From: Halobacteriales archaeon QS_8_69_73
GTDB lineage: Archaea; Halobacteriota; Halobacteria; Halobacteriales; Haloarculaceae
NCBI GenBank assembly: GCA_003022945.1
Contig: PXRZ01000055.1
Span: 1-64,000 of the forward strand
DNA length: 64,000 bases
Direction of reading: 5' to 3'
A program made the position numbers and the translations under genes. Of this stretch, positions 51,350 to 64,000 are shown piece by piece; the first letter of the stretch is position 1; each line of letters begins with the position of its first letter. The notes under the pieces are model-generated. The model was not told the origin of the DNA and searched no databases. It saw nothing but the letters and a program-made list of their open reading frames with translations.

Positions 51350-51399
51350 GTCTCGAGGGATAAATACATTTAAATACAATCCAGTGAATATACTTTCTA
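51350..51399 (+). promoter_or_regulatory. Probable AT-rich archaeal promoter of the methyltransferase gene
   Basis: gagggataaatacatttaaatacaatcc with TATA-like boxes ~20-30 nt upstream of the ATG at 51400. Confidence 0.45.
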
Positions 51400-52836
51400 A
51401 TGAAGGGGTTCGTCAAGACACCAAATCAGATTGCTCAGCGAATGGTAGAACTTCTCTTCAGGGAGTCAACCCCCTCCAAGGGAGATCAAATTCTCTTTCC
51501 AGGCGTAGGGGAGGGACCCTTTATCAAAGCGATCCAAGACTACTGTCTTAACCATGACCATCCTATCCCAGAAGGAATTGCGTGTGACACCCATAAAGGC
51601 CGACTCGAGAAGGCTCGTAGTCAGTTTGAGGGTCTACCAATTCAGTTTGAGCAGTTTGATTTCTTAGGCCGCAGGCAGGGCATAGGACAATTTGATTATA
51701 TCATCGGAAACCCACCTTACGTCCCAATCACGGAGATCAGGGAGTCAAAAAAGGAGAATTACCGCGATCGGTTTAAAACTGCAAAAGGCCGATTTGATCT
51801 CTATCTGTTGTTCTTTGAACAAGGGTTAAACTTGCTGAATGACGGGGGGAGGTTGGCATTTATTACGCCAGAAAAATTCGAGTACACTGAGACAGCCAGT
51901 GCCCTCCGGCAACAATTTGATGTATACCATCTAGAGCGATTAGAGCATGTCAGTGAGGGCTCTTTTCCGAGCCATATAACATATCCAATAATATCTATTG
52001 TCAGTAACACATCCCTGAATGGAACGACAGTAGTACCCCGGAAGGGAAATGCACGTGACGTTTCGCTTCCATCCGATGGATCCCGATGGTCTCAGCTCGT
52101 TCGCGATATCGACCCAGACCTTGATTCGACCGGTGTCACACTGGGTGAAGTAACGAGCCGAATTAGCCCTGGAGTAGCGACGGGGGCTGATTCTGTATTC
52201 GTATTCTCATCCGAAAAAGCACCTTCAGAACTAGAGCTGTGGAGTGTGCCAACTATTTCGGGAAAAGGACTTGAGCAGCAGCCGATTTCCGAATCCGTTG
52301 AGCCGATTGCAAAATTCATCTGTCCCTATGATAGCTCAGGCGATCTCCTCGATGAATCGGATCTCGACACATTTGGTGAATGGCTCAATGACGTGCATCG
52401 GTCAAGATTAGAAAAAAGGTCGTGCTTTCAAAAAGGAAAACGAGATTGGTATGCATGGCACGAAAATCCGCCGATGGATCAAATGTTGCAGGAGAAAATC
52501 CTCTTCCGAGATATAACTGACAGTCCTCGCTTTTGGGTAGATAAAGGAGGGGATATTATTCCTCGCCATTCGGTGTATTATCTGGTTCCTCAGGAGGGTG
52601 TTGATATTACAGGATTACAGGCATATCTGAATACGGGCCAAGTCGAACGGTGGCTGCAGGCAAACTGTGATCATGCTCGTAATGGGTACCTCAGGCTCCA
52701 ATCCAAGGTACTCAGAGACCTCCCAGTTCCAAGACGATTCTGTAGTAGCTATCAAACTGAACAAACATCATCCAGCTCAGATAGCCCGACCGACAGTTCA
52801 AAGATGAATGCAGCAGAGCAAACGGATGATGACTAA
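51400..52836 (+). CDS. TaqI/Eco57I-type adenine DNA methyltransferase with specificity-like C-terminus
   Basis: Motif FDYIIGNPPYVPITEIR; FDLYLLFFEQGLNLLNDGGRLAFITPEKF; C-terminal ...HSVYYLVPQEGVDITGLQAYLNTGQVERWLQANCDHARNGYLRLQSKVLRDLPVP. Confidence 0.88.
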   Translation: MKGFVKTPNQIAQRMVELLFRESTPSKGDQILFPGVGEGPFIKAIQDYCLNHDHPIPEGIACDTHKGRLEKARSQFEGLPIQFEQFDFLGRRQGIGQFDYIIGNPPYVPITEIRESKKENYRDRFKTAKGRFDLYLLFFEQGLNLLNDGGRLAFITPEKFEYTETASALRQQFDVYHLERLEHVSEGSFPSHITYPIISIVSNTSLNGTTVVPRKGNARDVSLPSDGSRWSQLVRDIDPDLDSTGVTLGEVTSRISPGVATGADSVFVFSSEKAPSELELWSVPTISGKGLEQQPISESVEPIAKFICPYDSSGDLLDESDLDTFGEWLNDVHRSRLEKRSCFQKGKRDWYAWHENPPMDQMLQEKILFRDITDSPRFWVDKGGDIIPRHSVYYLVPQEGVDITGLQAYLNTGQVERWLQANCDHARNGYLRLQSKVLRDLPVPRRFCSSYQTEQTSSSSDSPTDSSKMNAAEQTDDD

Positions 52837-53936
52837 TACAGACGACACCCATTCACTTCCAAGCCGAGTCATAGAGCTATTCCAAGAAGAAAAATACTCG
52901 GAATACGGGAGAAAGCAAACCGATGTAATTTGCGAAGCTGTGGGAAACGATGTTCTATCAAAGAGTGATACCTTGCTTGAAGCAGCTCGGGCAGGAGAAT
53001 TAGTCGCTGAACGGAATTACACACCTTCTGGACACAGTTTCTACCACGATGTCGATTACGTAGTTGGCACCCCAACTGACCCCGCACAGCGGCAAATAAC
53101 GGGAGAAGCCGAACTAAACTTCGGGAACGTAGATGATGTCTGGTTAGCCCTTAATGTCGAATCGGTCGTCTTCTCGCCGAACAAAAATTGGAAAAACCGC
53201 GGAAAGGAGATCCATTCCTTCTATCTTGGAGTCTATGATACTGCTCCACTTGCAGCGACTGGTAGTGTTGTCATTTTAAACGTCGAAGACTTAGATAGGA
53301 GTCCTGACGAGATAATCGAGGGTTATCAGGAGTTCGAGTTCGCTGATGGTTCAATAGTACAAAGTCTCGACTCGCTCGCAATCCTCCCTATTAGATACAA
53401 TGAAGAAGCCCCTCAAGAAGCCGAGTTGGAAACTGGTCTCCTATCGGAGGATGATGAGTTACACTACACATCATTCATAGACGTACTCTCAGGGGCTCTA
53501 GAACGGCGATTTCGGGGGGAGTTTCGGGTCTCTCCAGACAGTGTAGAAACCGTCCTCTCACGACAAGAAAGCGACGTGCTTGAATTCAAAGAACAACTCC
53601 CGGACCACCGTGATAAAGTCGCTCAGGAAGTGGCTGCGCTCGCAAATTATGAAGGTGGGAGCATCCTGTTTGGTGTTGACGACTCCGGTACTCCAGTCGG
53701 CCTTGATTCCATCAACCAGGTGGAAGAGACGGTAGCGAATATCCTGAGTGAAGGTCCTCTCAAACGTCATTCGAAACATAGAAAAAGCCCGTGTCGAAGG
53801 AGCAGACATCCTCATTATCAACGTAGATCGAGCAACGGCAGCACCGGTTGACGTCGACGGCACGTTCTTCGTACGGACGGGAACAACCACTGATAGACTG
53901 ACTGGACGGAAAATTCTGGACCGATTCCCACGGTGA
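52826..53936 (+). pseudogene. AlbA_2 (Schlafen AAA-4-like) domain protein with uncharacterised N-terminal domain; frame break near 53745
   Basis: SDVLEFKEQLPDHRDKVAQEVAALANYEGGSILFGVDDSGTPVGLDS...ILSE, then out-of-frame KVLSNVIRNIEKARVEGADILIINVDRATAAPVDVDGTFFVRTGTTTDRLTGRKILDRFPR*. Confidence 0.65.
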
Positions 53937-53981: not shown

Positions 53982-56900
53982 CTAGATCTGTCCCCAGAGG
54001 TCGGAAACTTCGTTCGGCGACGAGACGCTCAGATACCGATAATTCATCTGTAGCAATCGCTGGCGCTTTTCCTCGTCGTCTGCTTGGACGTGTTCTTTCT
54101 GATGATCTGGGCCATCAACGAATACCACAATCGGTTGGGATCGTCCTGCAGACTCATAGAAGAAGTCGGCTTCGACCACCGGTTCCTCGCCATCGTATAT
54201 CGTCTTTTGCGCCTCGTCTGGTAGGGGATAGCCTTCCTCCCGCACTCGCTCAAGGACATCGCGTTCTAAGGTAGATTCACAGGCACTCCGAAGCCCCTGA
54301 TATCGCTCCTCATCGTAGGTACAGTCAGTTGGGTTCAGGGTCAACGACTGTGTCCCTCGAAGCCACGGCATGACTAGTTCTCTGTCGAATAGAGGATGTT
54401 CACGCTGATTGTAGTATGACATCAGACACTCGTAACAGGCTCGCTCACATCCATCGGGATCGTTGGCGTGAAGCACATCAACTGCCTCTCGAATTGCTCG
54501 AGAGAAGCGGTTCTTAGTTGGATCAGTTAGGTCATGCAGCGCACCAGCACCGCCCTCGCTTGTCTCGTGGACCACGATAGTGAGATCGCCATGGTCACCC
54601 GGCGCCGGCTTTATGAAGGTCGATATCTCCTGCTCGTCAAGATCGAATTCGACGAGAATTCCCTGATAGAGGGCTTCTTTGAGCGTGTGGAAGAAGGATT
54701 CAGATCGATTGCCATCAATCTGACCGGGAAGGGGCGTCGTCACCGTCACGGTATCGTGTCTGCCTTCAGTGTAGAGTTCGATTCCTTCGCGAATTGCGTC
54801 CACGTCTGCATTCGCATAACAGCCGTCGTCAACGTGATTTTCGATCTGATTATAGCTCGTGAGCCACCGGTTACACTCCGTACATAGGGCAAAGCCCTGA
54901 AGCTCGTCGTCATCCCGGCCACGGATGCCGGAGTTGACCGTGACTATCCGCGCATTCGATTCATATGTGACGTTGCCTGAAACCCCATCGCCCGCTAGTT
55001 CGTACTCGGTTTCATTCCGGCGTTCGTAGTACTGTTCGATGTCGTAGCCCTCTCTCTGCCTCTCTTCGTCATCGCTGGTGATGTTTTCCTCCGGGCGAGC
55101 ACGCTGGTCTGGTAGCTCCATTGCGTTCGGGTTTGTGTGAACGCCGCCGAACGTCTCCTTACAGGCTGGGCAGCCTGCTGCCTCTTGGGCATCATCACCC
55201 ATCAGAATCGTCTCACAAGCTGGACAAACGATCTTGTGGCGAGTCACCGGGTCGGCATCCCGAGTCTTTGGTCTGGCATATTTGACGCCGTGTCGTTCCC
55301 CACGGTAGTATACGTGATTTCCTGGGGCGAACTCGCGGATCGCCTGAGCTTCGTCTCGCTGGATGTCATCCTCAAGTGTCGTGAACCCGAGTGTGCAGTT
55401 CGACCGAGGGAAGCCGTAATTAGGCAGGAATCCCTGTGAGCGGAGATACTGGTAGGAGTAGAATCGCTTGCCACCATCCCGCATGTTCTCGAGGCGGCGT
55501 TCTATCGCGTCACGTTCCTGTCGTTCGAGGTACTCGCCGCCTTCGGCCCCAAGTTTCTTGTTTAGCCGGCGAAGCTCTCGGGTCAATCGACTGTATTCGA
55601 TGCGCCAGGGGTCGAACGCTTCGTCGAATTCGTCGACGAATCCATCGACACGTTCCTCGATGAATTCGTCGCTAAACCAGTCAGTGTATTCCGTCTGTTG
55701 GCGCTCTCTGCTGAAGGCTTGTTTGACGGCCTGGATGATATCGTCGCGGTTCGATGCTACCGCGGATTCCAGGTCGTTACGATAACTCCCGTACAGCTCG
55801 TAACTGTTCTCAGTTGCCTTGATATCCAGAATCTGTTTGATCTTCCCCTGTAGCTTGAAGTCGATCACTTCGAGCACGAGGGCATTGATGTGTGCCTCCA
55901 GGAGATCCTGGTTGTTGAGGAGGAACGTCGGTGGAGAGATTTCGCCAGCAATGATCCGCTCCGGACGTTGGTAGAAATACTGATCATGCGAAGCACGGCC
56001 GAAACCGCTCCCACAGAACGTGGTCACGAGCGATGGCTGATTCTGACGCCCTGCCCGCCCCGAGCGCTGGGCATAATTGCTGGGGTTCGGCGGCACATTA
56101 CGCATAAAGACGTTCGACAGATCGCCGATGTCGATGCCGAGCTCCATCGTGGGGGTACAGACGATCGTATTCAGGTTCCCTCCCTCCTCCTGGAACTGCG
56201 TTTCTAACTTCTTTCGGAGCTCGCCTTCGATCTGCCCACTGTGCTCGGCGGCGAAGATGTCGACTGCATCTTCGAACGAGAGCGTGTATAATTCGTGGAA
56301 GTACGAATCTCGGAGATCGGTCTGCTCCGGCGTTACATTTCCACAGCTACTGTTGAGACACATCTCGAGACGATCTCGGGTAACGACGGTCTTGCACTTC
56401 GGACAGACAGAAACATCGCTCGGATCGTGGGGAACCAACTTAACGAGCCCAGAGTTGAGCATGTAAGCTTTGCGCCCTCGATAGATAGGGGCTTCAACCA
56501 ATAGGGGAAGCTCATTAGGGTCGCTCAGGAGATCTCGCACTCCTTCGATAACCTCGGCAGCTCGATCCGAATCGACGTCTAACGCCCTGGTCGTCCACTT
56601 GACGTGGCGGGAACGCCAATCGGTGAACCGGTGGATCTGTTCGGTGCCGCTGGTGTCTGCCGCGTCGCTGAATCCTTCAGGGAACCGGAAGAATTGCTGC
56701 TTATGGAATTGCGTATCGTCATCGAGGTTATTGATTACGTCTCTCCGGAAATCCCCGAAGTTGGTGAAGATATCGTGGTTGAGTGCCGCAGTCCGACGGA
56801 ACAAATCGAGGAACGCCTTGCAGTATTCGTGGCGGACGGCTGGGTCGGCGTCAGCTAATTCCGGTATATCATCCCAGACTTCGTCGATTGCGGCGAGGTC

Positions 56901-59279
56901 TTCGAGGTTCTCGTATTCGACGTCGATGAGACCGACGTCTTCGAGGCTCTGCTGACCCCGCTGTTGGCTCTTTCTGAGTTCCAAGAGCGTGTGGAACTGC
57001 AGGTATCGACCATACCTGGCCTTCTCGTCGTCAGGGACGCCGAACCGGTTGGTTTGTAGACCGTCTGGGAGGGTTTCGTTGCTCTCCAATATGTCGAAGG
57101 TTCGGTTCCCGATGTCCGCGAGACTCACTCGACCGTTCTCCTTCAACGCGCCATAGAGAGCGCGGCGGAATTTCACCCGCTGGTAGAGATTATTGAGGTG
57201 GGCCGCCTGCAAGGCAGTGTCCTGGCGATTATCGCTGAAGGCGATGGTTTTCTGCTGTGGATCAGGGAGTTCCTGCATCGTCGAACCGATGAGGACGTCG
57301 GTCGCGGTCGACCGGCCGACCGTCCCGAACTTGAACATCTTCGAGAGCTCCATTGCACGGCCCATCCGCGTGTGACTCACGCCGCAGTTACCACAGAACA
57401 GGAACTCCGCCTCGGTCCACATTACCTGGATTCCTTGCGTGGCGAAACACCCGCATTGTAGCTGTCCGCTCTCGAGGTGCCCGTCGGTCAAGCGATTATG
57501 CTGGGGACAGTAGGTGGCTGGTTCGGGAACTGCATCAACCCAGGTGTCCCTGAGGACGTCGTCGTCGTTGAACCAATCAGCTGGGAGCGGCACCTCTTCT
57601 CGGTCCCAATCGCCTCGCATAATGTATCCCGCGGTCTCGTCGTCCTCGACACTGAGGTCACTCACCTCTCGTGGCGCCAAGTGGCCGTGCCCATCACGCA
57701 CGATAGTGTAGTATTCCTGGCCACAGGCGCGGCAGAAGGATAGCGGGAATGCCTTGATACTCCGGTCGTATTTTCGAGCGCAGTGGCGACACTGGAGGTC
57801 CCCCGCGTCACTCAAGTGGGGTTCATCGTCCTCCAGGGTTTCCTGGGTGAGACACGCCACCAACCCAGATCCTTGACTGAAGAACGAATGGAGTTTCGGC
57901 ACGAAGATAGGCTGGTAGTCGCCTTGCACCTCCGTCGTTCCGACAGTTCCTGCGAGCAACGCGGCTTGGAGTTCCCGACGGGCTTCGTCCGGTGTGGCAC
58001 CCGGTCGGAATCTCTCGCGGTACTCCTCAACGAGCGATTCTTCCGCTTGTTCGGCGGCTTCCCCGGACGGCTGGATCTGCTGACTCCGAGTGCTTAGCTG
58101 TTCGTCGAGGAAGGCAACAGTGGGGTGATCGAGGAGGACCTCCCCGAGTGCTCTCGCGGATTTCGTTTCTTCTTTCCGGAGCGATCGCTCGGTGATCCGT
58201 TCCGCAAGTTTGGTCGCCTCGTCCGCTGACCCATCGAACCGTTGGATGTCCTCCTCAGTCACCTCGACCCGTTCGGGAAGATTCGCATCGCCAGTCAGGC
58301 CAAGGGTAAAATAGGACTCGCCAATGACCCGTTCCGGATCGACGGGCGATCCGAAGATTCGTTTGGAGAACTCGGCGATCTCCTCGTCGGCGTCCAATCC
58401 CTCCTCGCTCTGGACGGTCGCTGACGTCCCGATGCAGGTCAGCCCCTCGCCCGCGCCAGTGTGCTCACGAAGCCGGCGAATCAGGGCAGCGACGTCAGCG
58501 CCCTGCTGGCCAGTGTACGTGTGAATCTCGTCGAGGATCAAGAACTCGAGGGCACCGTCGTGTTCCGGCGGGAAGAGCTCCTTGTCCTGATGCCGGGTTA
58601 GGATGTAGTCCAGCATCACGTAGTTGGTCATTAGGATGTCCGGCGGATCCTCGCGGAGTTCCTCCCGGGAGACGACCTCGCAGTCATAGGGCTCGTCACG
58701 GCCGAATTGATTGAGGAACTCCGCCTCGCTGTCGGGATCCGTGGGCGTGTCCCCCGTGTAGAGACCGAGGCTGAGACCCGATCCATCGAGTCGTTCTGTA
58801 AACTCCTCGTACTGCGAGTTCGCCAGCGCATTCATCGGATAGACGATGACAGCCTTGATTCCCTCCTCCCCTCGATCGACGGCGTCGAGGCAGTGGCTGA
58901 CGATCGGGATACCAAAGGCGAAGCTCTTCCCGGAACCCGTACCCGTCGAGACGATTGTGTTCCCTTTATGAATCGACTCAATTGCCTCGGACTGGTGCTT
59001 GTACGGCTCGATTGGTTCACCACTCTCGTCATCAAAGACGTCCAGAACACCGGTGTGGAGAGATCCTTCGTCGACGAATTCGTTTAGGGACCGACCCGTC
59101 TGGAATCGCTCGTTGAGCTGGACAAACGGCTCCTTCCAGAGTACCTTTCCCGTGTTGATCCGCTCGTCAATCCAGACTTCAATCGTATCATCGTCGATGT
59201 TCTGGAACGTCTCGACGTAATCTCGATAAGACGTTTGAACCTCGTCGAGGGCATCAAAGGGATTGAGACGGGAGGCCAT
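53982..59279 (-). CDS. DEAD/DEAH helicase with C-terminal DUF1998/MZB Cys motif and terminal Vsr/DUF559-like nuclease-fold region (DISARM-like)
   Basis: YKHQSEAIESIHKGNTIVSTGTGSGKSFAF (Walker A), FLILDEIHTYTG (DExH), PTMELGIDIGDLSNVFMRNVPPNPSNYAQRSGRAGRQ (motif VI), CERACYECLMSYYNQREHPLFDR, ADFFYESAGRSQPIVVFVDGPDHQ...RLLQMNYRYLSV. Confidence 0.88.
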   Translation of the reverse strand: MASRLNPFDALDEVQTSYRDYVETFQNIDDDTIEVWIDERINTGKVLWKEPFVQLNERFQTGRSLNEFVDEGSLHTGVLDVFDDESGEPIEPYKHQSEAIESIHKGNTIVSTGTGSGKSFAFGIPIVSHCLDAVDRGEEGIKAVIVYPMNALANSQYEEFTERLDGSGLSLGLYTGDTPTDPDSEAEFLNQFGRDEPYDCEVVSREELREDPPDILMTNYVMLDYILTRHQDKELFPPEHDGALEFLILDEIHTYTGQQGADVAALIRRLREHTGAGEGLTCIGTSATVQSEEGLDADEEIAEFSKRIFGSPVDPERVIGESYFTLGLTGDANLPERVEVTEEDIQRFDGSADEATKLAERITERSLRKEETKSARALGEVLLDHPTVAFLDEQLSTRSQQIQPSGEAAEQAEESLVEEYRERFRPGATPDEARRELQAALLAGTVGTTEVQGDYQPIFVPKLHSFFSQGSGLVACLTQETLEDDEPHLSDAGDLQCRHCARKYDRSIKAFPLSFCRACGQEYYTIVRDGHGHLAPREVSDLSVEDDETAGYIMRGDWDREEVPLPADWFNDDDVLRDTWVDAVPEPATYCPQHNRLTDGHLESGQLQCGCFATQGIQVMWTEAEFLFCGNCGVSHTRMGRAMELSKMFKFGTVGRSTATDVLIGSTMQELPDPQQKTIAFSDNRQDTALQAAHLNNLYQRVKFRRALYGALKENGRVSLADIGNRTFDILESNETLPDGLQTNRFGVPDDEKARYGRYLQFHTLLELRKSQQRGQQSLEDVGLIDVEYENLEDLAAIDEVWDDIPELADADPAVRHEYCKAFLDLFRRTAALNHDIFTNFGDFRRDVINNLDDDTQFHKQQFFRFPEGFSDAADTSGTEQIHRFTDWRSRHVKWTTRALDVDSDRAAEVIEGVRDLLSDPNELPLLVEAPIYRGRKAYMLNSGLVKLVPHDPSDVSVCPKCKTVVTRDRLEMCLNSSCGNVTPEQTDLRDSYFHELYTLSFEDAVDIFAAEHSGQIEGELRKKLETQFQEEGGNLNTIVCTPTMELGIDIGDLSNVFMRNVPPNPSNYAQRSGRAGRQNQPSLVTTFCGSGFGRASHDQYFYQRPERIIAGEISPPTFLLNNQDLLEAHINALVLEVIDFKLQGKIKQILDIKATENSYELYGSYRNDLESAVASNRDDIIQAVKQAFSRERQQTEYTDWFSDEFIEERVDGFVDEFDEAFDPWRIEYSRLTRELRRLNKKLGAEGGEYLERQERDAIERRLENMRDGGKRFYSYQYLRSQGFLPNYGFPRSNCTLGFTTLEDDIQRDEAQAIREFAPGNHVYYRGERHGVKYARPKTRDADPVTRHKIVCPACETILMGDDAQEAAGCPACKETFGGVHTNPNAMELPDQRARPEENITSDDEERQREGYDIEQYYERRNETEYELAGDGVSGNVTYESNARIVTVNSGIRGRDDDELQGFALCTECNRWLTSYNQIENHVDDGCYANADVDAIREGIELYTEGRHDTVTVTTPLPGQIDGNRSESFFHTLKEALYQGILVEFDLDEQEISTFIKPAPGDHGDLTIVVHETSEGGAGALHDLTDPTKNRFSRAIREAVDVLHANDPDGCERACYECLMSYYNQREHPLFDRELVMPWLRGTQSLTLNPTDCTYDEERYQGLRSACESTLERDVLERVREEGYPLPDEAQKTIYDGEEPVVEADFFYESAGRSQPIVVFVDGPDHQKEHVQADDEEKRQRLLQMNYRYLSVSSPNEVSDLWGQI

Positions 59280-59440
59280 GATATCTCATGTCTGTGTCGG
59301 CATAATAAACGTTAGTTTAGAGCCGAACTGACAGCTGATTCATCGCGCATGAGAATGACTTATCTTCCACAGCCCGCGCCTCATCCGGGCAATTACGGGA
59401 ACACGGTTTGGAGTGAGCCAGCATCATCGACGAGTCCACA

Positions 59441-60499
59441 TCAAAACCAACCATAAAATCTTGTAGAGGTTTTTCCCCAGGAGCCTTCTTTCATTGCTCG
59501 TCGAATAAATTGTGTGGCTTCTTTTTCGTCGTTTACTATTTCTAATTTTATCCGAGCACCGCTTTTTGAGTCTTCCTCTACTAAGGCGATACCTTGTTGT
59601 TCAGCCCTTGCCCTTTGCACCCCGGGTACATCGTTTGGGATGTTAAGTCGAAACATGCCATTATCCTCATAAAAATCGTACTTCATTAACCTCGTTTCGC
59701 CATCACTACAATAAACCTTGACATCCTCATCTGGCCCACCCACTAGTTCATATATAACTTCACCTGCCGTTTTTGGGAACTCGACCTGAAAGGTATAATC
59801 ACCGGTGAATGATTGAAGGCCAGCCCAAGCGGCTTTTGCATGTTTTGGGTTAAATGTCGGTTTGTTAGGCGGGTTTGATTGCAGATCCGCTGGATTTGTA
59901 TTTTCTTGAGTCGGGAGAGGTTCGCCTAGGCCTACAGATTGGTGGTCTTCAGGCTGTCTTCGCTTGATTTCTGCATATTGTTCAGAGTATTGATCTAGAT
60001 CCACTGACTCTACAGGAGTACAGATCTCCCAAAGTTCTACGGCTGTTCCAGATAATTGATCGACAATTTCACTATTTTCGGTTGTAAGACCGACCTCGAT
60101 ATTATTTGACAGCCCACCGCCCGTAAAATTTGCAGAGCCGATATACCCGGCAGTTGAGTTTTTCAAGTAGGGTGCAGGCGAATTACTGCCTACTAAGCCA
60201 ATCTTTGGATGAAATTGGGGGCCCCTATTTCCCGCTAGTCGGAGAGTCCATCCCAAATCCTTGGCGTCATCAATTGCAGCGGGTTCTGTGACATACCCAT
60301 TCAGTCCAAAAATCGCTGCACAATCTTGTATACCAACTTCTTCAAACACCGATTTGAGTCTCCTGACACCATCTCTTGATACATATGCTGATGCGAAAAA
60401 GAAGGTTTGAGCTCCACACTCGTCTAATAGATGTTTGAGTTGACGTTGAGTGTTCCTAGAATCGAGCCCTGAGATGAAGACTTGAGTCCCGTGAGGCAT
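59441..60499 (-). CDS. Phospholipase D-like nuclease-domain protein
   Basis: QFHPKIGLVGSNSPAPYLKNSTAGYIGSANFTGGGLSNNIEVGL, a single HKD-type motif with GSANFT. Confidence 0.85.
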   Translation of the reverse strand: MPHGTQVFISGLDSRNTQRQLKHLLDECGAQTFFFASAYVSRDGVRRLKSVFEEVGIQDCAAIFGLNGYVTEPAAIDDAKDLGWTLRLAGNRGPQFHPKIGLVGSNSPAPYLKNSTAGYIGSANFTGGGLSNNIEVGLTTENSEIVDQLSGTAVELWEICTPVESVDLDQYSEQYAEIKRRQPEDHQSVGLGEPLPTQENTNPADLQSNPPNKPTFNPKHAKAAWAGLQSFTGDYTFQVEFPKTAGEVIYELVGGPDEDVKVYCSDGETRLMKYDFYEDNGMFRLNIPNDVPGVQRARAEQQGIALVEEDSKSGARIKLEIVNDEKEATQFIRRAMKEGSWGKTSTRFYGWF

Positions 60500-60500
60500 T

Positions 60501-63500
60501 CTATTTCTCCGTTATTCGGTCATAGGCAGATAAAATCAGTTTCTTTGTTCTAAATTCCCCATGGCTAGATATATCATTTTTCCTCACGGTGTTGAAAGAG
60601 TCGAGGATTTCGCTCAGATTCCCCCTGGTTAGCCCATACTTTTTACCAAAGTATGCATCGAGTTCTGCTTGAATATTCTCACGTCGCTTTATATCCCATA
60701 TGAACGGTGAGAAGCGAATGGTCTCTTCGGCGAACTCCGATTCATCAATCCAATCTGGCCTTCCAGACTGTTCCAATTTATTTTCTCTTTTTATTCCATT
60801 TTCCTGATATCGCTGGGAAATTTCTTTTTTGACTTCAGGGCCCGAAGAGTGCCAAATATCGTCAGCAAAAGTTGCCTGATCCCAAGATGTGTAGATGAGC
60901 TCGAGAACACGTGGAATAATAAATTGAATATCTTGCTTACCGTATTCATTCGGGGTGATTGTCGGAGTTTGTTCTATCACGTATTGTGGTAATGAAGGCT
61001 GATTTAGTTTCTGTCTAACGACAAAATCAAAGGGAATTGACCACATATTTGCATAGAGGCAGCTAATCAATTGTGGATCCGTAATACTAGTATGTGTGCC
61101 GACCAATGTATAGCTGATAGCAGATTTTGGAATAATCGTTCCCACGACGGTTCGATGATTTGTTGGGGAAGTCACCCTCTTAAACGTACCAACCCACTCA
61201 AATGGCCACTCTTCAGGCACTCGCTCCTTTATCTCGTTCTCAGCAATCCAATAGAGAGGGCCTGGAATGAAATTAGGATTTTGGTGATCATCATCTTCAA
61301 TCTTTTTGGGCTGAGCGGATCGATTTACATTGTCGGTTAGCTCAATCGTTGAATGGCGATGATCGTATAAATCCACCATCTTCCCTTCATAAACTGGAAG
61401 AAAAGTCTGACTTCCGGCCTGATATCTATTGTATTTATCAAATGAGCCACCGGAAAGACCCTCAGTTTCATTCAACAGGGAGCTATCATTGGACATATGA
61501 AACATCTGATTGAACGAAATCCCCCATGGGTCGAATCTATCTGTCTTATTTAACAAGACTGGTGCCGAATTGTGGAGTTTTAACGTTAAATCTGCATGGG
61601 ATTCTTTCCTGAATAATGGGCACGTCTTGGTGTTTGGATTTATTATTTCTAAATCTTCTGGAGACAGATTAAAATGCCGGCTTGGATTATAAAGTTGGTT
61701 AATGTTCGTCATAAAGAATGCAAAGTCAGCTTCTTCTACATCTAGATCCGGCCCGGATATTGTTAATAAACTAAATTTCATTCTGTTATCAATACCCGGG
61801 AATAGAGCCTCACGGTTTTCAAAGTCAAATAGCGATACCAAACTCCTTGATTCGATAATGTCACGGAAAAACTCTTGTGTATAGTAGTCGGTAGCGATAC
61901 CACTAGGGACAACAATGCCAGTTCGGCCAGTCCCGCCTAGGAGATCTCGATTCGATTCTGCAAATAGAGGGTAATAATTAAGATCTCCTTGGGCTGTGAG
62001 AGGATAACGGCCAGACTCTCGAAGGAATTTTGCCCGTTGCTTTTTTCGTTTTACCTTCATCTGATAGCGATGATATAAATCTGGGTCTTCTTCCTCCAAT
62101 TCGTCAATAAGGTCCTGGCGATCCGATTTCTTGTCAGTTGCTGCGATTTTCGGAGCAGCAGTAGCAAAGAATTCCCTCTCTTCAAGCTTATTTCGTTCCC
62201 AAGGAGGGTTCCCTAACACACAATCAAACCCGCTCGAATTACTAAGAAATACGGTAGGGAATTCAAGTTCCCAGTGGAAAAATGATTCTTCGTCAGCAAT
62301 ACTCTGTGTAAACCCGACTAGATCATTATTCCGGGAGTCGACTGCTTGAAGTCCTTCCCGTCTGATTTGTTCAACCTTGCTTGGAGTCGGATATTGGTCA
62401 AGTGTTCCATCCAATGGCCAGTAGAAAGCTGCTGTCCAGACATCGAAAGCGAGCTTCTCTTTCTTATAGTCCGTTGACCCGACCACTTCTTCATAGAGTT
62501 GTTTTTTCTTTTCTATGTCGTTTATATTCCTTTCTGGAATGTCTTCAAGCCGCTTTGCGGTTTCCACATATTCTTCTGCTCTCTCCCAACTCCAATCAAG
62601 ACCTGATTGGAGCTGTTGGTCCTCCCTCAAGCTCTTATTCTCACTACGTACTTTTTTTCTTATTTCGTTACCAACATGACCATCTCTTCCTTTAGATGTC
62701 TCAAACGCATCTACAGGGATCCCTTGTTCAAGCAGCTCTGAATTGGTCCCAACCAGAGAGTTTCCTTGCTTAATTCGGTGATCGAGAAAACTCAGTGGTT
62801 GATCCTCCACAGCCGAGTTGATCCACAAGCTCACTTTGGCAAGCTCTACTGCCATAGGGTTCAAATCAACTCCATACAGACAGTGTTGGACCACAGATCT
62901 CCGAGCCCTCCGAACTGTGGCCTCATCGGGATATGCAGAGTCACTACGAATCTCTGCCAACCTTTTGCCGAGATAGTTGTTGGCTGCAATGAGAAACGCT
63001 CCGCTCCCTACTGCTGGGTCGCAGACATCGATGTCGAGTAATGCTTCCTCTTTTTCTTCCTTTGTATCTGCCTTTCCCAACCGGTCATTGACGACAGGCT
63101 TCAGAGCACTCTCGATGAGCTCGTCGACGAGTTCTGGTTTAGTATAGTAGCTTCCCGTCTCTTTCCTCTCCATCCCCCGATCATCGAGATAGAATTGACC
63201 ACGAGAAATCGAGCGATCATCAAGCTCCAGAGCCGTGTCTGCTAGTTGAGGAGTGAATTCCAGCAGGCTTTCGTAGACTGCCCCGATTTCGTCGACGCCC
63301 AAATCCGCGTACGAAATTCGTTGCTGGTAGCCCTGTTGCTCCACGTGGGTGAGGTTGTGGATCGCACTGAGGATTGCGTCATTATTACACGCAGCGTCCT
63401 GTACGAATTCCAGTTTCTCGTCATCGAAGAGGCCTCCATTGTACCCCGGAACGTGCAGATCGTCTTTATCAACGCCTTGTCCAACAAGGCGGAACGTAAT

Positions 63501-64000
63501 CTTCAGTCCCTCCCAGAGGTCCGTTTGATGATCCCGAGACTGTTTCCGTTCTGCCCGCTCACGAAGCGCACTAATGCTGTATTCTTTGGTGTAGAGGGCT
63601 CCCCGATCCGCCATCATCCCCCGTTGTTCTGCGAACAGAAGGAACAGAAGGCGATAGACGATTCGCAGGAGGTCCTGGTAGTACGCTTCAGCCTCCTCCT
63701 GACCACCTTCCTCGAGAGCCTCTCTGATTTCCTTGTTGAAGAAACCGTTACCGAGTGTCTCTAGAGCCTCGACGACGTTTGACTGTAGATCCTCACCGAC
63801 TTTGACGCCGGTGGCGAGAGCGACCTGATAGAGCGATTCTAAGGAGGATTCAGCGTCGTCTCCGTCGCCCCTCGGAATGAACCGGGAGGCGTGACAAACA
63901 CGATAGAGTGCTCGGAAGTCGTCGTAGTTCCGATTGGTGAAGATGTTCTCGAGATCGAATTCGACGTACCCTCGGGTGTAGGTGTGGTAGTAGTCACGGA
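60501..64000 (-). CDS. Large DISARM/BREX-like adenine DNA methyltransferase; 5' end outside window
   Basis: CDPAVGSGAFLIAANNYLGKRL; HCLYGVDLNPMAVELAKVSLWI; FDCVLGNPPWERNKLEE. The frame stays open upstream of the listed ATG: RDYYHTYTRGYVEFDLENIFTNRNYDDFRALYRV...LLRIVYRLLFLLFAEQRGMMADRG. Confidence 0.9.
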   Translation of the reverse strand, partial: RDYYHTYTRGYVEFDLENIFTNRNYDDFRALYRVCHASRFIPRGDGDDAESSLESLYQVALATGVKVGEDLQSNVVEALETLGNGFFNKEIREALEEGGQEEAEAYYQDLLRIVYRLLFLLFAEQRGMMADRGALYTKEYSISALRERAERKQSRDHQTDLWEGLKITFRLVGQGVDKDDLHVPGYNGGLFDDEKLEFVQDAACNNDAILSAIHNLTHVEQQGYQQRISYADLGVDEIGAVYESLLEFTPQLADTALELDDRSISRGQFYLDDRGMERKETGSYYTKPELVDELIESALKPVVNDRLGKADTKEEKEEALLDIDVCDPAVGSGAFLIAANNYLGKRLAEIRSDSAYPDEATVRRARRSVVQHCLYGVDLNPMAVELAKVSLWINSAVEDQPLSFLDHRIKQGNSLVGTNSELLEQGIPVDAFETSKGRDGHVGNEIRKKVRSENKSLREDQQLQSGLDWSWERAEEYVETAKRLEDIPERNINDIEKKKQLYEEVVGSTDYKKEKLAFDVWTAAFYWPLDGTLDQYPTPSKVEQIRREGLQAVDSRNNDLVGFTQSIADEESFFHWELEFPTVFLSNSSGFDCVLGNPPWERNKLEEREFFATAAPKIAATDKKSDRQDLIDELEEEDPDLYHRYQMKVKRKKQRAKFLRESGRYPLTAQGDLNYYPLFAESNRDLLGGTGRTGIVVPSGIATDYYTQEFFRDIIESRSLVSLFDFENREALFPGIDNRMKFSLLTISGPDLDVEEADFAFFMTNINQLYNPSRHFNLSPEDLEIINPNTKTCPLFRKESHADLTLKLHNSAPVLLNKTDRFDPWGISFNQMFHMSNDSSLLNETEGLSGGSFDKYNRYQAGSQTFLPVYEGKMVDLYDHRHSTIELTDNVNRSAQPKKIEDDDHQNPNFIPGPLYWIAENEIKERVPEEWPFEWVGTFKRVTSPTNHRTVVGTIIPKSAISYTLVGTHTSITDPQLISCLYANMWSIPFDFVVRQKLNQPSLPQYVIEQTPTITPNEYGKQDIQFIIPRVLELIYTSWDQATFADDIWHSSGPEVKKEISQRYQENGIKRENKLEQSGRPDWIDESEFAEETIRFSPFIWDIKRRENIQAELDAYFGKKYGLTRGNLSEILDSFNTVRKNDISSHGEFRTKKLILSAYDRITEK

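Follow-up and report, generated by a model that had tools for sequence, protein, structure and literature searches.

What is a DNA methyltransferase (MTase) doing beside a protein that ends in a Schlafen-like domain and begins with a region matching no recognized family? Two overlapping genes raise this question in the window, the 64,000-nucleotide stretch of haloarchaeal DNA that we analyzed (host assembly G000, 76% complete). Our answer, which we hold tentatively and at a little under an even chance, is a two-gene restriction-modification (R-M)-like unit with its origin in a CTCGAG (XhoI/PaeR7I-type) system; a restriction-fold domain would serve as the DNA sensor and a Schlafen nuclease as the effector. 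The MTase open reading frame (51400..52836, + strand, 478 aa) matches Pfam Eco57I (E 6.6e-23) and TaqI_C (E 4.8e-7) and carries an NPPY motif, which bears out its preliminary description as an NPPY methyltransferase with a TaqI-like specificity end. The partner frame opens mechanically at 52808, from which we number its residues (D83, N116, E118, E254 and so on), while the start that matches its intact orthologue lies at 52829 and gives an 8-nt overlap with the MTase gene, as in the homologous locus of genome G077; the 11-nt overlap originally reported holds for an ATG at 52826 and not for the orthologue-matching start. The partner frame (347 aa) stops at 53851, short of 53936. The AlbA_2 domain is frameshifted, which the preliminary description did not mention.

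We searched 151 genomes of the same family and 400 of the same class for the fused gene, and found the protein in three: that of the window, G077 (79% identity), and G385 (about 60%), representing three genera in two families. All three fused genes lie directly downstream of the same type of MTase and are convergent with a gene encoding a DruE-like helicase. A neighborhood search for MTase + AlbA_2 pairs, as the preliminary description had proposed, thereby recovered the pair intact in two other genera, and this recurrence in the same position relative to the DruE-like gene argues that the pairing is not due to chance. In a tree of the MTases the three fused loci cluster together, with XhoI and other partners intermixed among the remaining loci. 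The N-terminal domain alone is present in further Halobacteria, and none was found outside that class in a 298-genome sample of the phylum that overlaps the earlier genome sets. We found no relative of the window protein in viral contigs and only domain-level matches in plasmids; a search of phages returned a single AlbA_2-only match, with the G077 copy as query.

The MTase belongs to the gamma-class N6-adenine enzymes of PaeR7I/XhoI type, an assignment based on its NPPY motif, its two Pfam domains, and its distant homology to M.PaeR7I (paeR7IM; 24% identity over 93% of the query, E 1e-22), which has the same Eco57I + TaqI_C make-up and is followed by the R.PaeR7I gene. PaeR7I recognizes CTCGAG and methylates its A (PMC3031569). 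Among the 21 class genomes that encode this MTase family, an XhoI-family gene adjoins the MTase in nine (eight upstream, one convergent), and the neighbors that were scanned match PF04555 at E 1e-51 to 4e-56; beside the MTase copy on plasmid phalar02 of archaeon DL31, an XhoI-family gene (E 2e-62) is divergently oriented. In five of the 21 genomes, and as a broken copy in one more, a ~280-aa protein of another unknown family replaces XhoI beside the MTase. This family, encoded upstream of the MTase (L072, L073, L076, L078, L079), shares a GEPDxVxP...GExRV motif, shows no Pfam match in the two members scanned, and is a candidate for a new CTCGAG restriction enzyme. Two MTases (L084, L085) have no detected partner. 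No XhoI-family gene was found in G077, in G385, or in the incomplete G000 by a search that detected such genes in four other genomes as a positive control, so the fused protein is the sole candidate partner seen.

The C-terminal part of this partner is AlbA_2/Schlafen-like, as first described: PF04326 matches residues 254-309 (53567..53749, + strand) at E 3.8e-12, and in the intact G077 copy it matches over positions 1-117 of 118 at E 7.4e-22. A haloarchaeal AlbA_2 profile aligns with SLFN11-14, including 5yd0, and this profile alignment places window residues E254, E259, and D292 on E205, E210, and D248 of rat SLFN13, whose mutation abolishes or lessens RNA cleavage (PMC5862951). By analogy, the Schlafen domain may be an RNase. 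All three acids precede the frameshift, a single extra C that DNA alignment against both intact homologues maps to 53750..53760 (+ strand) and places near 53755-53759. The second half of the domain follows in the shifted frame (53763..53936, + strand, within the frame of 53748-53936), where it matches PF04326 positions 71-117 (E 0.0011) and is colinear with G077 and G385. A programmed frameshift was rejected because both homologues are intact in a single frame and lack the extra base. By eye, third-position-type differences persist past the shift, so it is either recent or an assembly error. Elsewhere, a second haloarchaeal fusion joins DUF4365, a PD-(D/E)XK-type nuclease domain, to a Schlafen AlbA_2 domain (L007:1060-1980), so the combination of restriction-like and Schlafen domains may be more general. 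Three other AlbA_2 proteins (L009, L012, L013) have an N-terminal GIY...YxG-like pattern by eye and no Pfam GIY-YIG match.

The preliminary description recognized no family in the ~210-aa N-terminal region, and we likewise found no match in Pfam (including XhoI, PF04555), NCBIfam, or PADLOC, and none among PDB sequences. Stand-alone relatives of this domain (257-324 aa, 25-28% identity; L035-L040 and L004) align with one another over W-N-x-D-L-V ... D-A-K-S and a K-A-R-R-N-R helix, a sequence pattern that identifies them as putative PD-(D/E)XK nucleases. At all loci examined they adjoin a beta-class N6_N4 DNA methylase, mostly directly downstream of it. This methylase is patchily distributed, as expected for an R-M gene; we rejected its identification as the ubiquitous CTAG orphan MTase, since it forms a separate family to which the common copy is only ~40% identical. 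In one Halorhabdus, three consecutive genes encode the beta-class MTase, the stand-alone N-domain protein, and an XhoI-family nuclease whose gene overlaps that of the N-domain protein (L054:8468-10992, the same locus as L036).

We performed the structure prediction that had been suggested for this region. AlphaFold2 models of the window's N-domain (pLDDT 76, pTM 0.77) and of a stand-alone relative (pLDDT 80, pTM 0.83) both show the strand-strand-strand-helix-strand order expected of PD-(D/E)XK proteins, supporting a predicted restriction-endonuclease-like fold for 52829..53530 (+ strand). The best Foldseek matches are restriction enzymes (BbvCI, BspD6I, SgrAI; E 0.018 to 0.13, with 0.045 for the window's domain), although none reaches 1e-3. 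Together with the PaeR7I/XhoI-type MTase and the recurrence in three genomes, this predicted fold supports the original proposal of an R-M or R-M-like unit. The catalytic segment of the fused copies aligns by hhalign with that of XhoI (P 0.0016, 0 of 100 column shuffles reaching the score), which is only suggestive of kinship with XhoI itself; for the stand-alone copies 19 of 100 shuffles reached the score, and a relationship of these to XhoI is not significant.

The fused copies depart from the D...(D/E)xK motif of the PD-(D/E)XK superfamily. Alignment with the stand-alone homologues, which read DAK in every intact copy, shows D83 ... N116-V117-E118 in the window protein (codons 53153..53161, + strand), with NVE also in G077 and DVE in G385. 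D83 is invariant. Every fused copy has glutamate where the motif has lysine, and in two of the three the paired acid is asparagine.

Counts of CTCGAG around these genes fit a cutting enzyme at the XhoI loci and, at the fused loci, either no cutting or far weaker cutting. The six XhoI-bearing loci hold 16 sites against 64 expected, with five of the six clearly low. The three fused loci hold 90 (68 expected), and two loci with ~280-aa partners hold 19 (17 expected). Because the regions are short (14-64 kb), we treat these counts as supporting evidence only. Around a lone MTase in genome G285 the site is over-represented (31 observed, 11.7 expected). The absence of avoidance at fused loci bears on the possibility that the partner is a conventional type II restriction enzyme whose active site is a BamHI-like variant (D...D/NxE) and whose AlbA_2 domain is an added nucleic-acid-binding or regulatory part. 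Its pairing with a PaeR7I-type MTase would be a classical R-M pairing and D83 is retained, and since BamHI is active with glutamate in place of the lysine (PMC4081073), loss of DNA cutting is likely rather than certain. A type II enzyme is nevertheless the less comfortable fit for an active site whose second acid is asparagine in two of three copies, for a site that five of the six XhoI loci avoid and the fused loci do not, and for a Schlafen domain that keeps its catalytic acids, and we consider it unlikely, though more probable than the other alternatives. Three observations (Lys to Glu in every fused copy with asparagine as the paired acid in two, no CTCGAG avoidance, intact Schlafen acids) indicate that the N-terminal domain, first proposed as the effector, is probably not one; they make Schlafen the better effector candidate and the N-domain a likely DNA sensor.

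A CTCGAG site also lies at 51352..51357 (+ strand), 43 nt upstream of the MTase start, where it abuts a TATA-like box in the MTase promoter (51360-51376, + strand; ATAAATACATTTAAATA). Six loci (the window, G077, G385, G285, G469, and DL31 phalar02) have it in the equivalent place, 42-48 nt before the MTase start and directly against a TATA-like box, and in an alignment of these six it forms six invariant columns within an otherwise diverged region. The site also sits beside the MTase TATA-like box at six loci with the second type of partner (one of them broken) and two of XhoI type, for a total of 14 loci (the window and 13 others). Six XhoI-first loci, all in one clade, lack it, as do two partnerless MTases within that clade. 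The lone MTase of G285, which occupies the same spot beside a DruE-like gene, has two CTCGAG copies in its leader (L057:13328-13359). Since the promoter site is independent of partner type, its most likely role is in regulating the MTase itself, as has been described for CfrBI (PMC3874152). The site is independent evidence for CTCGAG as the target. Given this site, the XhoI-family partners of haloarchaeal relatives, and site avoidance at XhoI loci, CTCGAG is very probably the sequence that the MTase methylates.

The promoter site might instead be read as an operator, with the fused protein a regulator whose dead nuclease domain binds CTCGAG and represses the unit. Cleavage-deficient BamHI can act as a repressor (PMC8845596), and each of the three fused loci has the site directly beside the promoter. 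Against this, the site is just as well conserved beside XhoI-type partners, beside partners of another family, and where there is no partner, which assigns it to the MTase; the Schlafen catalytic acids, moreover, are retained. We regard such a regulator as improbable. Still less probable is a decaying R-M remnant with a dead nuclease and an MTase kept as an orphan: the lost motif lysine, the frameshift in the window copy, and the existence of MTases with no detected partner (L084, L085) are in keeping with decay, but in G077 and G385, at about 60% identity, the frames are still full length and the Schlafen catalytic residues are conserved.

On its other side the pair faces a composite defense operon (window 53982-64000 plus L071:1-5495) that mixes parts of DISARM and Druantia: a DrmD-like protein (E 1.8e-118, beyond the window end), a DrmMI-like protein, a weakly DrmC-like PLD protein, and a DruE-like helicase with an MZB domain (53982..59279, - strand, 1765 aa; PADLOC DruE, E 3.5e-120), which is the conserved convergent neighbor. 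The preliminary description called this operon DISARM-like; the convergent arrangement is as it stated, whereas the DruE-like helicase makes the operon a mixture rather than pure DISARM. The DrmMI-like gene might seem to lack its N-terminus at 63617, but we rejected such a truncation: the frame runs on beyond the window end, where the intact gene starts. Where the window has its PLD gene, G077 has a 761-aa HATPase-domain protein between the DrmMI-like and DruE-like genes (L042:4033-6318), and G285 has an unrelated 734-aa ORF. That the pair is an accessory module of this operon, for example a backup suicide effector with a second methylase, is also very unlikely: despite convergent adjacency at all three fused loci, the lone MTase at the same spot in G285, and reports of Schlafen RNases accompanying BREX loci (PMC12839542), the fused gene is missing from the majority of DruE-like loci and relatives of the MTase occur without a DISARM/Druantia-like operon.

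In the sensor-effector unit that we favor, the MTase would mark host CTCGAG sites, with its expression probably tuned by methylation or occupancy of the promoter site. The PD-(D/E)XK domain of the partner is most likely a restriction endonuclease that, having diverged, binds DNA and no longer cuts it efficiently; cleavage-deficient restriction enzymes can still bind their site (PMC8845596). By sensing foreign unmethylated DNA, this domain could release or concentrate the activity of the Schlafen domain, whose likeliest substrate is RNA, for instance tRNA. On the model of bacterial Schlafens and PrrC, RNA cleavage would then halt growth or kill the infected cell. The full version of this scheme, in which unmethylated CTCGAG triggers shutdown through a non-cutting sensor and a Schlafen RNase as a form of methylation-gated abortive infection, is possible rather than probable. 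Counting against an R-M-like unit with a Schlafen effector are the lack of a significant Foldseek match in the PDB (best E 0.018-0.045), the weak relationship with XhoI, the glutamate of BamHI, and the small number of fused copies (three); AlbA_2 domains are also annotated as DNA-binding, and the window's copy is frameshifted.

Several known systems resemble parts of this one. Type II PaeR7I/XhoI systems share the MTase family and architecture, the M-then-R order (as in PaeR7I), the CTCGAG that here lies at the promoter, and the XhoI-family partners seen in haloarchaeal relatives, but here the restriction gene gives way to one whose product lacks a Pfam XhoI match and carries a Lys-to-Glu change and a Schlafen domain. 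PrrC/EcoprrI also couples an R-M unit to a presumed translation-blocking RNase, an anticodon nuclease that EcoprrI keeps silent as long as the R-M enzyme is not inhibited (PMC12707154); that unit is type I, whereas the window system is type II and a single fused polypeptide with a Schlafen rather than a PrrC-type nuclease. Prokaryotic Schlafen/AlbA_2 defense proteins, such as those reported beside BREX systems (PMC12839542), share the E-E-D acids and the defense neighborhood, and differ in having a kinase-like or wHTH region where the window protein has a restriction-endonuclease-like sensor half. The stand-alone N-domain proteins (L035-L040, L004) have a homologous domain and an adjoining DNA MTase; these systems are themselves uncharacterized, and unlike the window's they keep D...DAK intact, lack AlbA_2, and use another MTase class. 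The closest designed parallel is BamHI D94N/E113K-gHNH (PMC8845596), in which a cleavage-deficient restriction enzyme binds its site and carries another nuclease domain, although that protein is man-made and its second domain nicks DNA. With most subscription papers and preprints outside our literature search, we found no paper on a restriction-endonuclease-like domain fused to Schlafen in an R-M setting.

Our data suggest that a restriction system has been rewired into an alarm-and-shutdown device. The promoter CTCGAG of 14 haloarchaeal loci offers a concrete, testable case of archaeal R-M self-regulation through a system's own site, and a named putative target (CTCGAG) together with the catalytic residues of both domains makes the mechanism directly testable. 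If true, self/non-self recognition by DNA methylation would be tied directly to an RNA-level suicide response within one polypeptide, and restriction enzymes would be connected with the Schlafen antiviral family of mammals.
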